This document shows positions 22,852 through 27,192 of a stretch of DNA of 32,317 nt, one piece after another. The translations under genes were made by a program, and so were the position numbers. Source of the stretch: Lysobacteraceae bacterium. Its GTDB lineage: Bacteria; Pseudomonadota; Gammaproteobacteria; Xanthomonadales; Rhodanobacteraceae. Position 1 is the stretch's first letter, and each line of letters opens with the position of its first letter. The DNA lies in NCBI GenBank assembly GCA_018969845.1, contig JAGWXP010000007.1:1-32317 (forward strand), written 5' to 3'. The notes beneath the pieces are model-generated. The model worked only from the letters and a program-made list of their open reading frames with translations. It made no database searches and was not told the origin of the DNA.

Positions 22852-23637
22852 ATGCCCAAATCTTCCATACCCCAGAGCGTACTGACCATTGCCGGATCGG
22901 ATTGCAGCGGCGGGGCGGGCGTTGCAGCCGACCTGAAAACCTTCGCCGCCTTCGGCGTGCATGGATTGACTGCCATCACCGCGGTGACGTCGCAAACCGC
23001 GCGGCGAGTGCAGGCGATTCACCGCATTCCTGCCGCGCAGGTCAGGGCGCAAATCGAAGCGGCCTTCGTGGATTTCCGCGTCGATGCCATCAAGATCGGC
23101 ATGCTCGGCTCCGCGCCGATCGCACGCGCGGTCGCGGCGGCCCTGTGCGCCGCGGCGCCGCGTCATATCGTGCTCGATCCCGTACTCGCATCCAGCAGCG
23201 GCACCGTGCTGCTATCCAAAACCGGATTGCGCGTCTTGCGCGAAGAGCTTGTGCCACTCGCCACGCTGTTGACACCGAACCTTCCCGAAGCGGAAATCCT
23301 GCTCGGCAGACGCATCCGGGATCGGGCCCGCGCCGCGCAGGATTTGCGCGCGCTTGGCCCGCGCGCGATCCTGCTCAAAGGCGGCCATGCGCGCGGGCGC
23401 GAAGTATGCGACGTGCTCTGCGATGCGCGCGGCGTCCTGGAATTCCGCCATCCACGGCTGCCGATCCGCGCACGCGGCACGGGCTGCGTGCTGGCATCGG
23501 CGATCGCCGCCGGATTGGCGCGGGGGCTCACATTGCGCGCGGCCACGACCGACGCCCAGGCCTTTCTGCAACACGCTCTGGCCGCGAGTTTTCCGATCGC
23601 CGGGGGATCCGTTCGCATCCTTTCGATGAATCCCTGA
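22852..23637 (+). CDS. thiD: Hydroxymethylpyrimidine/phosphomethylpyrimidine kinase ThiD
   Basis: ThiD phosphorylates HMP and then HMP-P for thiamine synthesis. The 261-aa ribokinase-like protein has [18 protein letters not shown] near the N-terminus, [36 protein letters not shown], and the catalytic-loop region [20 protein letters not shown]. The gene stands alone, without other thi genes nearby. The Shine-Dalgarno is poor. The foldable segment at 22754-22836 lies directly upstream, so control through that leader is possible but unproven. It is followed after 44 bp by the small secreted protein gene. Confidence 0.94.
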
Positions 23638-23681: not shown

Positions 23682-23981
23682 ATGAAACCCGCAATTGCGC
23701 TTGCCTGTCTTGGCCTGCTGGCCGCATTCACCGCGTTCGCCGATACACCGATGGTGCCAGAACCGCTGGCACCCTTGGCCCAGCCGAAATCAGGCCGTGC
23801 GCCGTTGTACAAACCGGCCGCCAAACTGCGTCTGCCCGCTCCAACCATTACAGTCACGCGCCTGGTGCGCCAAGCGGACGGCAGCCTGCGCATGCAATGC
23901 GACCAGGAGCCGAACCCGCGCGCAAAGATCGCGCTGCCACCGAACCGGGTCGCCACTCCGAACGCGCAGGTGCAACAATGA
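23682..23981 (+). CDS. Small secreted protein of unknown function, coupled to the metalloprotease gene
   Basis: The 99-aa product has a clear signal peptide (MKPAIALACLGLLAAFTAFA, cleavage before DTP), leaving about 79 residues. The mature part is rich in proline and basic residues, with one Cys in the segment RQADGSLRMQCDQEPNPRAK. No known domain is recognisable. The stop codon overlaps the start of the following protease gene in ATGA form (23978-23981), so the two are almost certainly one translational unit. The product may accompany the protease through export, for example as chaperone, inhibitor or partner. That is an inference from linkage only. Confidence 0.72.
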   Translation: MKPAIALACLGLLAAFTAFADTPMVPEPLAPLAQPKSGRAPLYKPAAKLRLPAPTITVTRLVRQADGSLRMQCDQEPNPRAKIALPPNRVATPNAQVQQ

Positions 23982-26476
23982 TTCGTCGTCTCGCGACAAT
24001 CGCCGCTGCACTGGCCCTGTCTCAGGCGGTGTGGGCGGATGTCGGCCTGCAATCAGGCGCGGCCAACAACCTGCCCGCCCTACCCGCCGGCAACTATTTC
24101 TCGAATTACTACATCGATGTTCCGGCCGGCGCGCAGCAACTTGCAGTCAACCTCAACGCCAGCGGCGGCGACGTGGATCTGTTCGTGCGCTTCGGTTCGC
24201 CGTTCCCGGTGCAGAACACGAGCGTCAGCTACCCGACCGTCAGCTACGACCTGCTCAGCCGCTACGGCCAATACCACTCGGGAAGCTCCACGTCGAACGA
24301 ATCCGTGCTGATCCTGCCATCCGACAAAGTGCCGTTGCAGACCGGGCGCTGGTATATCGCATTGATCAACGGCGGTAGCTCAACCGCAAACGGTACACTG
24401 ACTGCGAGCTATTCGTCGACTGTGCCAGTCGGCGATATCGCACTGGATTTCAACAGCAGTTACGTCGATCCGAAGGATGCCAAGAACAATTGCGACATCA
24501 GCTTCTGGACCGACTCGACACCGGCCACGCCGATCGGCGGCAACAACGGTACAACCCTGGGCCAGCAGCGTCAGAATGCGTTGGCCTATGCCGCGAACGA
24601 ACTGGTCGCCCAACTCGGTATTCCGACCACGGTCACCGTGCAGGCCTGCGGCGCACATCTGGGCGGCGACAACAACTCGGCCACGCTGGCGCATGCCGGC
24701 GCGACGTCCTTCTTCTACGACGAACCACACTATCCGTCGCCATCGTTGCCGAAAAAATACACCTGGTACCCCTCGACGGTCGCCACGCGCCTGAACGGCT
24801 CCAGCCTGTGCGGATTCGCCGGCGGCGCCTGCGACACCCTGAGCAACGACGAAATCCAGGCCGTGTTCAACATGGACGTCGGTACCGCGAGCGTGCTCAA
24901 TGGCCAGAAGTTCTATCTGGGTTTCGACCCGAACCAGAAGCCGGCGGGCCAGATCGATTTCATCCACATCGCCATGCACGAGATGACGCACGGTCTTGGT
25001 TTTCTCGGCTTGGTCAATACCGATTCGACGCAGGGCCCGCTGGGAGCCAAAGCCGGTTTGACTGTCAACGGCAGCTCCGCCTCCATCGACTACACCAACC
25101 TGACCGACGGTCCGTTCGACGACATCTTCGACGACAGCGTTTCCATCGTTGCCAATGCCGGCACGACCTATACGCCATTTGCCGGTTACGAAGTGAATGG
25201 CGCCAACGATGCCGCCCGCGCGGCGGCGATGGTGTCCGGTGGCACGACAACCTCGGGGGGGGATTACGTGCCCGGTCTGTACGGCACGACCAACTGTGGC
25301 GTTTACAGTGGCCCATGCACCGGTCTGCGCTGGTCCGATGCCGGGGCGGCAAATTCATCCGTCAACCAAAACGTCGGACGCGCCGCACCGGCGGATTTCC
25401 CGAGCCTGTACGCGCCCTGCGACAAGTCCAAGACCAGCACCTGCGCCGAGCAGAACGGATCGACCCTGTCGCACACGGTGCAGGCCGGAGACATGATGAA
25501 CGCGTACGATTCCGGAACGAATCTGCGCAACATGGGCCTGGCCGTGCCCATGCTCGGACCGATCGGCTGGTCCAATGCCGCCGCGCCGATGCCGACGTGG
25601 GGCCAGCCGATACCCAGCAACTGGTACGACGTCTCGCATTCCGGCCACGGGTTTGATTTTCAACTCGGCTATCACGATGCCATCAATGGCGACGTATATG
25701 TCCTGACGTTTTATAGCTATGCTGCGGACGGCGCTCCCGAGTGGTACCAAGCAGTCGGCCATTTGGTCGATGGCGTGTTTCTTCCCGCCATCCAGAGTGC
25801 CAACGGCAGCACCTTGTTGCGCGTGAAGTACGCCTCGAATGCGCCCGGACAACTCGGCGCGACAGCCGACACGTCCTATTACGGCAGCGTCGTCGTCGAT
25901 TTCAACCAAGCGGCAAACTCGCCGGTCTGCCGCAACGTCGACCGCAGCCAGGCGCCGCAACTGGCGGTGATGTACTGGGTGATCGGCACCGATGCGACCA
26001 ATACCGCCAACGACCAAAGCGCGTCGTGGTGCATGCAGCCGATCGTCCCGCTGGCATCGCATGCCACTCCCGATTACAACGGCCACTGGTACGCCGGTTC
26101 CGCCGATTCCGGCTGGGGTTTTGAATTGCTCGATGTGAATGTAGGCAGCGCATCGCCAGCGGTATTTGTCTACATGTACTACCCCGGACCGAACAATCAG
26201 CCGACGTGGGCTGCCGCATCGGGCACCCTGGTCAACAACAGCGCAACCATGCAGGTCGTGCAAATCGCCAACGGTTATTGCCGTACCTGCACGCCGCCGG
26301 CCGGCGGCGTGCAGCCGGGTCCTTCCATTGGCAGCATGCGATTGACGCTGAATCCGATTACGGCAGGACAACAACCGACCGGGATCGCGACCTTCCAACT
26401 CGCCTATCCGGGTGGTGGCGCCTTTACACGCAACAATGTGCCGATCCAGATGCTCTCGGTTCCAACCGGACGTTAG
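23978..26476 (+). CDS. Secreted zinc metalloprotease with PPC domain and duplicated C-terminal module
   Basis: The 832-aa product starts with a signal peptide (cleavage near VWA-D21). A bacterial pre-peptidase (PPC) beta-domain follows at about 39-137 (GDVDLFVRFG, GRWYIALING). The central catalytic region has the zinc motif HEMTHGLGF (His334, Glu335, His338). At the metzincin third-ligand position (HExxHxxGxxH/D) there is Gly344 instead of His or Asp, so the third ligand must come from elsewhere. The C-terminus holds two related modules, from Trp549 (NWYDVSHSGHGFDFQL) and from Trp704 (HWYAGSADSGWGFELL). Each continues with a run of Tyr-rich strands and a PxW..A.G.LV motif. The protein is probably secreted or on the cell surface. 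Substrate and processing are unknown. Confidence 0.85.
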   Translation: MIRRLATIAAALALSQAVWADVGLQSGAANNLPALPAGNYFSNYYIDVPAGAQQLAVNLNASGGDVDLFVRFGSPFPVQNTSVSYPTVSYDLLSRYGQYHSGSSTSNESVLILPSDKVPLQTGRWYIALINGGSSTANGTLTASYSSTVPVGDIALDFNSSYVDPKDAKNNCDISFWTDSTPATPIGGNNGTTLGQQRQNALAYAANELVAQLGIPTTVTVQACGAHLGGDNNSATLAHAGATSFFYDEPHYPSPSLPKKYTWYPSTVATRLNGSSLCGFAGGACDTLSNDEIQAVFNMDVGTASVLNGQKFYLGFDPNQKPAGQIDFIHIAMHEMTHGLGFLGLVNTDSTQGPLGAKAGLTVNGSSASIDYTNLTDGPFDDIFDDSVSIVANAGTTYTPFAGYEVNGANDAARAAAMVSGGTTTSGGDYVPGLYGTTNCGVYSGPCTGLRWSDAGAANSSVNQNVGRAAPADFPSLYAPCDKSKTSTCAEQNGSTLSHTVQAGDMMNAYDSGTNLRNMGLAVPMLGPIGWSNAAAPMPTWGQPIPSNWYDVSHSGHGFDFQLGYHDAINGDVYVLTFYSYAADGAPEWYQAVGHLVDGVFLPAIQSANGSTLLRVKYASNAPGQLGATADTSYYGSVVVDFNQAANSPVCRNVDRSQAPQLAVMYWVIGTDATNTANDQSASWCMQPIVPLASHATPDYNGHWYAGSADSGWGFELLDVNVGSASPAVFVYMYYPGPNNQPTWAAASGTLVNNSATMQVVQIANGYCRTCTPPAGGVQPGPSIGSMRLTLNPITAGQQPTGIATFQLAYPGGGAFTRNNVPIQMLSVPTGR

Positions 26477-26501: not shown

Positions 26502-26536
26502 ACAACGGCCGCGCCACGCGGCCGTTGTAGTTTTTT
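26502..26536 (+). terminator. Strong rho-independent terminator after the metalloprotease gene
   Basis: A perfect 12-bp stem (ACAACGGCCGCG / CGCGGCCGTTGT, 26502-26528) with a 3-nt loop is followed by AG and six T residues. It lies 25 bp after the protease stop codon. A smaller GACCGG / CCGGTC inverted repeat lies just before it. Confidence 0.92.
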
Positions 26537-26595
26537 GCTTAACGAAAGTCTATGCTGCAAAGCCGACAGCGTTTCCACCCTTTACGGAGGAGCCC

Positions 26596-27192
26596 ATGCT
26601 GGTGGAAGTCAGACCCAGCAACGACATCCATAGCACCCGCGTCCTGTCGCTGGATTCCAGCGGCCGCATCCTGGACTGGATGAGTTGGCAGGACGCGGTA
26701 TGCCTGTACGTGCGCGATGCCGTGGCCTGGACGCTCGGCGATGCGTGCCTGACCGTGCATGGCGGCACCAACCGCGACAGCGGCCTGCAAAGCACGATCG
26801 ACCTGCATCCCATCGTCGCCAGCCGAGGTCATGCGCGTGCGGGCCTGATCGAACCTGCACCCGCCCTCACCAATGCCGCGCTGTTCGCACGCGACCGCAT
26901 GTTGTGCCTGTATTGCGGCGATCATTTTTCGCGCGGTGAACTCACCCGCGATCATGTCGTGCCGTTGTCCAAGGGCGGCCTGGACGTCTGGGAAAACGTT
27001 GTCAGTGCTTGCATCTGCTGCAACGTGCGCAAGGGCTGTCACACGCCGCAGCAGGCCGGCATGCCGCTGCTCGCCGTGCCGTACCGGCCGAGCTGGGTCG
27101 AGCATCTGATCCTTTCCAACCGCAACATCCTCGCCGACCAGATGGAATTCCTGGTGCATCATTTGCCGAAGAACCGGCGTCACCTGGCGTAG
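26596..27192 (+). CDS. HNH endonuclease family protein
   Basis: The 198-aa protein has a C-terminal HNH nuclease motif: the zinc-knuckle CLYCGDHF, the metal-binding LTRDHVVPLSKGG, the Asn in DVWENVVSAC, and a second Cys pair in CICCNVRKG. The N-terminal 100 residues (RVLSLDSSGRILDWMSWQDAV) are typical of a widespread single-gene proteobacterial HNH family of unknown role. A GGAGG 5 nt before the ATG at 26596 fixes the start, although the frame is open further upstream. TATGCT at 26551-26556 may be its -10. It stands between a terminator and the channel gene, with no methylase or toxin partner nearby, so a restriction role is not supported. Confidence 0.88.
   Translation: MLVEVRPSNDIHSTRVLSLDSSGRILDWMSWQDAVCLYVRDAVAWTLGDACLTVHGGTNRDSGLQSTIDLHPIVASRGHARAGLIEPAPALTNAALFARDRMLCLYCGDHFSRGELTRDHVVPLSKGGLDVWENVVSACICCNVRKGCHTPQQAGMPLLAVPYRPSWVEHLILSNRNILADQMEFLVHHLPKNRRHLA

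Follow-up and report, generated by a model that had tools for sequence, protein, structure and literature searches.

Why does the gene of a small exported protein run into the gene of a large exported metalloprotease, and what might the one product do for the other? The question arises at a locus of a Lysobacteraceae bacterium (GTDB family Rhodanobacteraceae), on positions 1 to 32,317 of contig JAGWXP010000007.1 from assembly GCA_018969845.1; this whole stretch of 32,317 nucleotides is called the window in the following. An initial annotation had described here a 99-aa protein with a signal peptide, overlapping by ATGA the start of an 832-aa exported metalloprotease, and a terminator that closes the unit. 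We confirm the coordinates of the overlapping pair, and the terminator has both a stem and a T tract (Table 1). The small protein had been proposed as an inhibitor, an export chaperone or a processing partner of the protease. Among these, the sequences make an inhibitor that acts like a pro-peptide, with a cysteine as zinc ligand, appear the likeliest. We lean towards a split zymogen, in which the small protein (the partner) would be the pro-peptide of the protease acting in trans and would block the active-site zinc with Cys, His or Glu.

The pairing of partner and protease is close to obligate. The protease of the window is of a long form that consists of a signal peptide, a PPC-like domain, a catalytic domain and two avidin-like beta barrels (signal peptides and lipoboxes were assigned by eye throughout). 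We surveyed 147 genomes of the family and, across the order, 398 genomes together with named contigs and fetched regions. Among the family genomes, 22 have a match to the partner (E <= 0.01) and 43 a protease match. A readable long-form head is present in 18 of them, including that of the window, and all 18 have an ATGA or GTGA overlap between partner and protease; genome G111, with only a C-terminal protease fragment at a contig end, stands outside these 18, and the partner of G008 was unseen by the profile search and recognised through its overlap. Order-wide, 56 distinct long-form entries were collected, from which two were excluded (L136, cut at the contig start, and L125, the N-terminal part of a fused protease). 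A partner lies directly upstream in 52 of the 54 testable distinct proteases, truncated by the contig end in L054 and L204, and 42 of these 52 loci have a four-base NTGA overlap (L121 by a TTG start, which is less sure). At L125 in genome G176, two proteases are fused in a single gene, and a partner is found upstream of this gene, separated from it by another open reading frame (ORF). The fused frame of this locus (L125/L209) has 1231 aa and joins a short-form protease, as defined below, to the long form; two partner-like ORFs lie upstream of it, each with a G-x5-C element.

Homologues occurring mostly without the protease would have spoken against a dedicated partner; we found the opposite. 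All 37 strong matches of the partner profile (E < 1e-6, 398 genomes) are in genomes with a long-form protease, 36 of them on the same contig and upstream of it; in G211, partner and protease are on separate contigs, each near a contig end. Of 52 weaker order-wide matches (E 1.4e-4 to 0.01), 12 were looked at, and these comprise three true partners (G161, G177 and, beside a short form, G393) and nine unrelated proteins, some of which we take to be spore-coat-U-like. Six weak matches from the family survey (L015, L018, L019, L020, L022 and L023) lack the core of the partner and were rejected. The partner gene is present as a single copy in the whole genome of the window. The near-obligate pairing supports the earlier proposal that the small protein is a dedicated partner of the protease. 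Natural fusions of the two were not seen among the loci read, although no dedicated search for them was made.

A coupled partner also accompanies shorter relatives of the protease. We refer to proteases with the LGF core (HEMTHGLGF in the window) that have neither the PPC domain nor the C-terminal barrels as short forms, and we sampled 50 of their loci (11 + 4 + 13 + 20 + 2), which are part of all found, the 20 being picked from a longer list; in L202 and L242 the protease was unreadable. An exported upstream partner of 89-178 aa is present in 47 of the 50 loci, often with an ATGA overlap. When the profiles of long- and short-form partners were compared, they matched over 31 columns (probability 93.7%, E 1.9e-7) with Cys73 of the window opposite a His. 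All 21 aligned short-form partners match the family NF047450, post-PEP-CTERM-1 (E <= 0.1, best 6.2e-21), whereas 10 of 44 long-form partners match it weakly (best 6.6e-4) and the partner of the window does not match at E <= 0.1, the 28-bit cut-off not being reached. NF047450 was found in five of 215 class genomes (four over the cut-off), always directly upstream of a match to an LGF protease; at the locus in G470, the HExxH was not detected by pattern. Conversely, no convincing partner was found for 20 proteins that share only the C-terminal domain (L140-L159), by a test that looked for G-x5-C or a four-base overlap only. The upstream ORFs flagged in L150, L152, L157 and L159 were judged spurious by eye; L140 and L159 carry another HExxH motif. 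Since short forms are partnered and proteins with only the C-terminal domain show no convincing partner, the catalytic domain appears to be the shared client. Binding of the partner to the avidin-like domain is disfavoured by the same 20 proteins.

The partner has no recognisable domain, as had been noted: neither a Pfam nor an NCBIfam family matches it at E <= 1. In a search of solved structures, its profile retrieved only four PDB chains, at E 0.22 or worse, and no potempin chain was among the PDB matches. The conserved-looking core in the initial annotation is indeed conserved close to the window, where Gly67, Cys73, Pro77 and Asn78 are invariant within the core (alignment A1, the relatives of the window). 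Farther away only part of it survives. Across 44 partners of the order, which are otherwise almost unalignable, only Met1, Gly67 and Cys73 are invariant, so that the element common to the partners is a C-terminal G-x5-C skeleton. A C-x3-PN motif like that of matrix metalloproteinases (MMPs) was rejected as the defining motif because, although 18 of 18 family genomes keep it, most other members of the order have lost it. The substitution rates indicate that the partner gene is under purifying selection: nonsynonymous (dN) and synonymous (dS) divergence between the window and L055 are 0.212 and 0.894, and dN was below dS in eight pairwise comparisons (ratio about 0.17 to 0.77). These rates and the conserved overlap rule out a spurious ORF that overlaps by chance.

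The single Cys that had been noted in the mature partner, which has no His, is a feature of the whole group, as all 44 mature partners have exactly one. The proteases, in turn, have an even number of Cys after residue 30 in 42 of 42 cases, namely eight (19), ten (14) or twelve (nine), and the pairs 481/489 and 768/771 disappear together. Thus, no Cys of the protease seems spare for a mixed disulfide. For two exported proteins, a lone thiol beside an evenly paired enzyme is unusual. The parity is indirect evidence that Cys73 is free of disulfides; by itself it would also be compatible with a homodimer.

A closer look at the position of this Cys, six residues after the glycine (G+6), points to what the thiol may do. 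We ran a search model made from residues 50-71 only, that is, with G+6 omitted, on 90 partners (52 of long and 38 of short forms) and obtained ungapped matches covering the glycine at E <= 0.05 for 69 of them. Of these 69 matches, which include short-form partners, 48 have a Cys at G+6, 18 a His and three a Glu, and no other residue occurs there. Among the neighbouring positions, the share of Cys, His, Asp and Glu is 30% at G+5, 29% at G+7 and 61% at G+8, and the next highest is the turn Asp at G-1 with 84%. Outside the model count are 21 partners, five of long and 16 of short forms. By eye, the five have Cys (L121, L126 and L204) or His (L205 and L206). For the short forms, model (22) and inspection (16) together give 38 of 47 partners with Cys, His, Asp or Glu at the element, which is ambiguous in L196 and L200; one further partner (L270) has His. 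In a quickly built tree of 79 catalytic domains, which includes labels by eye and has 17 open forks, the residue changed at least seven times. What Cys, His, Glu and Asp share is the ability to bind zinc, and His or Glu can replace a zinc ligand but not the Cys of a disulfide. The exchange among Cys, His and Glu thus suggests a zinc ligand rather than a disulfide. Together with the even number of protease Cys, it disfavours both a disulfide-linked heterodimer and a Cys-mediated homodimer. At G+2 and G+4 most residues are hydrophobic, and if this segment were a strand, G+6 would share their face.

Is the protease an enzyme that such a ligand could block? Its fold is predicted to be that of a leishmanolysin-like metzincin. 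The model of the catalytic domain, built from 71 alignment rows (pLDDT, the predicted local distance difference test, 87.6; pTM, the predicted template modelling score, 0.90), was most similar to leishmanolysin 1LML (Z 13.6, root-mean-square deviation 3.5, 206 aligned residues), followed by karilysin and MMPs with Z 8-9. His334, Glu335 and His338 are invariant in 71 of 71 rows, which is partly by construction as the rows were picked by a pattern that contains HExxH. The contiguous HExxHxxGxxH is absent (HEMTHGLGFLG in the window). Leishmanolysin has a distal third zinc ligand and a Met-turn, and the fold assignment is backed by distal His499 and Met507, each invariant by alignment in 42 of 42 long forms and taken as the putative counterparts of these two features. 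Other residues stand in these two columns in eleven short forms of the family and in L203, L222 and L229 from other orders or classes. At least the family short forms have an insertion in this region, presumably a PA-like domain, and the alignment is undecided for short forms. None of the 42 long-form members matches Pfam M8 at E <= 0.1, and no solved structure was matched by the protease sequence at E <= 1. The protease of the window scores 26.8 bits around HEMTHGLGF against NF038122 (metallo_LGF), for which the curated cut-off of 80 bits is not reached. The N-terminal PPC-like domain matches PF04151 below the cut-off (E 3.7e-4; 21 of 42 relatives at E <= 0.1) and resembles residues 422-517 of Tk-SP 3afg (Z 11.8). 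The full-length model has a pLDDT of 86.6 and a pTM of 0.88. No pro-segment is visible in the protease chain, where the catalytic domain directly follows the PPC domain or, in short forms, the signal peptide. Among 369 class genomes, 15 match the protease at E <= 1e-30, with full length only in two from the family of the window; outside the order, only the catalytic part is seen.

We thus picture the split zymogen as follows. Both proteins would be exported and meet one to one in the periplasm. The C-terminal element of the partner, probably a strand-turn-strand hairpin (..xxDGxLxhxC), would sit in the active-site cleft, where Cys73 (in relatives His or Glu, perhaps Asp) would occupy the free coordination position of the catalytic zinc. 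In this way the protease would be folded yet silent until it is outside the cell, and the partner would be shed or degraded after export, with release likely after type II secretion. A pro-peptide in trans would account for the coupled translation, for the absent pro-segment and for the rarity of solitary partners.

That metzincin pro-segments block the zinc is textbook knowledge, and in all cases that we know of they are on the same chain as the enzyme. For serine and cysteine peptidases, there are propeptide-like inhibitors that stand alone (MEROPS I9 and I29); these are alike in that a pro-peptide function comes from a separate gene, and they differ in peptidase class and have no metal ligand. 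Within the metzincin clan, the blocking residue is Cys or Asp and differs between related families: Cys is described for MMPs and mirolysin, and Asp for astacins and karilysin (PMC6949598, PMC9848320). The partner resembles these cysteine- and aspartate-switch pro-segments (pro-MMPs, promirolysin, proastacin, prokarilysin) in having a short conserved element with a single Cys (or Asp, in some pro-segments) ahead of a catalytic domain that is, for the protease here, of predicted metzincin fold. It differs in that it is a separate, overlapping and translationally coupled ORF and in that His and Glu also occur. In sequence, nothing is shared with these pro-segments apart from a loose likeness of C-x3-PNP in the partner to PRCGxPD of the MMPs. 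Leishmanolysin (M8) and NF038122 share HExxHGxGF and a putatively equivalent distal His and Met with the protease, with 1LML as the nearest predicted fold, and the protease of the window adds the PPC-like and two avidin-like domains. NF047450 proteins are matched directly by short-form partners and through profile comparison by long-form partners, whereas the partner of the window lacks their DPxTGxLxxP part. We recognised no literature on the partner-protease pair and none on 'post-PEP-CTERM' among open-licence papers.

By gene layout, the nearest described arrangement is that of the potempins and KLIKK proteases of Tannerella forsythia, where the gene of a small exported lipoprotein inhibitor directly precedes the protease gene (PMC7296668). 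The partner could thus be a potempin-like dedicated inhibitor that blocks the cleft and shields the periplasm of the producer, with G+6 as a structural residue rather than a zinc ligand; we consider this unlikely, although it is the strongest of the alternatives. The upstream position is common to both. Furthermore, the signal peptides of the distant partners L087, L191, L195, L197 and L198, outside the order, end in what looks like a lipobox, which suggests that they may be lipoproteins kept in the cell envelope. The partner of the window has no convincing lipobox, in contrast to the potempins, which are lipoproteins. A potempin-like role leaves the restriction of G+6 to Cys, His and Glu in the model matches unexplained, and no folded inhibitor domain is obvious in the partners. 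A related case is a type VI secretion system of Stenotrophomonas, for which a karilysin-like effector is described with a potempin-like immunity protein that bears a signal peptide (PMC13340143).

Slightly less probable still is a zinc-delivery or folding chaperone, which would bring zinc to the nascent protease with its Cys, His or Glu and nearby His, Asp or Glu, or would act as a steric foldase, without lasting inhibition. The coupled translation suits an early delivery of zinc, the tails after the Cys are His-rich in L079, L132 and L123, and the residues of the zinc-ligand type at G+6 in all the model matches are explained almost as well by zinc delivery as by a split zymogen. The mature partner of the window, however, offers few ligands for a carrier on its own, and we know of no metzincin that needs a dedicated zinc carrier. 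Least probable is a secretion adaptor or pilot that would deliver the protease for type II secretion without contact to its active site: the secretin GspD is encoded in the genome of the window and both proteins appear exported, but short forms without PPC domain and barrels also have partners and the 20 proteins with the C-terminal domain and no LGF core show no convincing one.

Several further observations, besides the good fit of zinc delivery to the residue data, weigh against a split zymogen. Related partners are not independent observations and inflate the counts, and the tree backs only a handful of independent changes at G+6. A partner is missing for two proteases, L086 (long form) and L256 (short form), and no convincing partner was found in the six loci read of proteases over the NF038122 cut-off (L214-L219). 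Seven of the 47 short-form partners lack a recognisable element (L085, L087, L088, L089, L191, L198 and L201), which means that some branches of the wider family do without the ligand; either the distant partners inhibit differently or our ligand reading is too narrow. The lipoprotein-like distant partners are as compatible with a retained inhibitor as with a pro-peptide, and the PNP tail that resembles PRCGxPD is mostly limited to the family of the window. The similarity to 1LML came from a second-look aligner alone, while for the model of the catalytic domain none of the PDB matches by Foldseek was significant (best E 2.2).

The chances seem even that the split zymogen is general, that is, that widespread leishmanolysin-like proteases keep their latency switch on a coupled protein with the ligand swapped among Cys, His and Glu (perhaps Asp), and that post-PEP-CTERM-1 is the wider switch family. 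If so, a switch in trans would make latency separable from the enzyme. It would also give a function to post-PEP-CTERM-1, which has been named by context only, and to many small hypothetical proteins of the Lysobacterales. Finally, the Cys, His and Glu switches would be a natural series for comparing ligand strength and release.

Table 1. Features of the partner-protease locus (positions in the window; residues are those of the respective protein).
Feature	Position	Strand	Remarks
Small exported partner protein, 99 aa	23682..23981	+	ATG 23682, TGA 23979-23981
Partner signal peptide, about residues 1-20	23682-23741	+	by eye
Partner conserved core, residues 54-79, PTITVTRLVRQADGSLRMQCDQEPNP	23841..23918	+	putative hairpin, named from the sequence pattern
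Codon of Cys73 (G+6), putative zinc ligand	23898..23900	+	sole Cys of the mature partner
ATGA stop/start overlap from partner to protease, translational coupling	23978..23981	+	sequence
Exported metalloprotease, 832 aa	23978..26476	+	ATG 23978, stop ends 26476; signal peptide about residues 1-20, by eye
N-terminal PPC-like beta domain, residues 26-147	24053..24418	+	weak PF04151 match, likeness to Tk-SP 3afg
Catalytic domain, residues 148-545, leishmanolysin-like predicted fold	24419..25612	+	structure model against 1LML
HEMTHGLGF, residues 334-342: first two zinc His and catalytic Glu	24977..25003	+	
H499 (putative third zinc ligand) to M507 (putative Met-turn)	25472..25498	+	both invariant in 42/42 long forms
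First C-terminal beta barrel, avidin-like, residues 542-691	25601..26050	+	Shwanavidin Z 8.7
Second C-terminal beta barrel, avidin-like, residues 692-827	26051..26458	+	8t0b (domain of unknown function) Z 10.7, afifavidin Z 8.5
Rho-independent terminator with T tract	26502..26538	+	12-pair stem at 26502-26528; fold z -5.43

Some observations concern the protease gene and its surroundings. The region of the C-terminal barrels is likewise found at the end of many other proteins of the order that look exported (open frames of about 560-1500 aa), and may be a binding tail. In a Dokdonella metagenome-assembled genome (G099, L042/L068), the protease frame stops early at 677 aa and the remaining C-terminal region lies in another open frame, which is probably due to a frameshift or sequencing error. 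Just 5' of the pair, the window contains a thiD-like kinase of hydroxymethylpyrimidine (HMP) or its phosphate (HMP-P) at 22852-23637 (+). Similar-looking frames were seen by eye upstream in several distant relatives (L057, L067, L071, L074, L127 and L209), and the neighbourhood of thiD-like gene, partner and protease thus seems partly conserved. Directly 3' of the terminator, at 26596-27192 (+), lies a gene for an HNH endonuclease-like protein, which resembles, below the threshold, the HNH region of Cas9d/IscB models.

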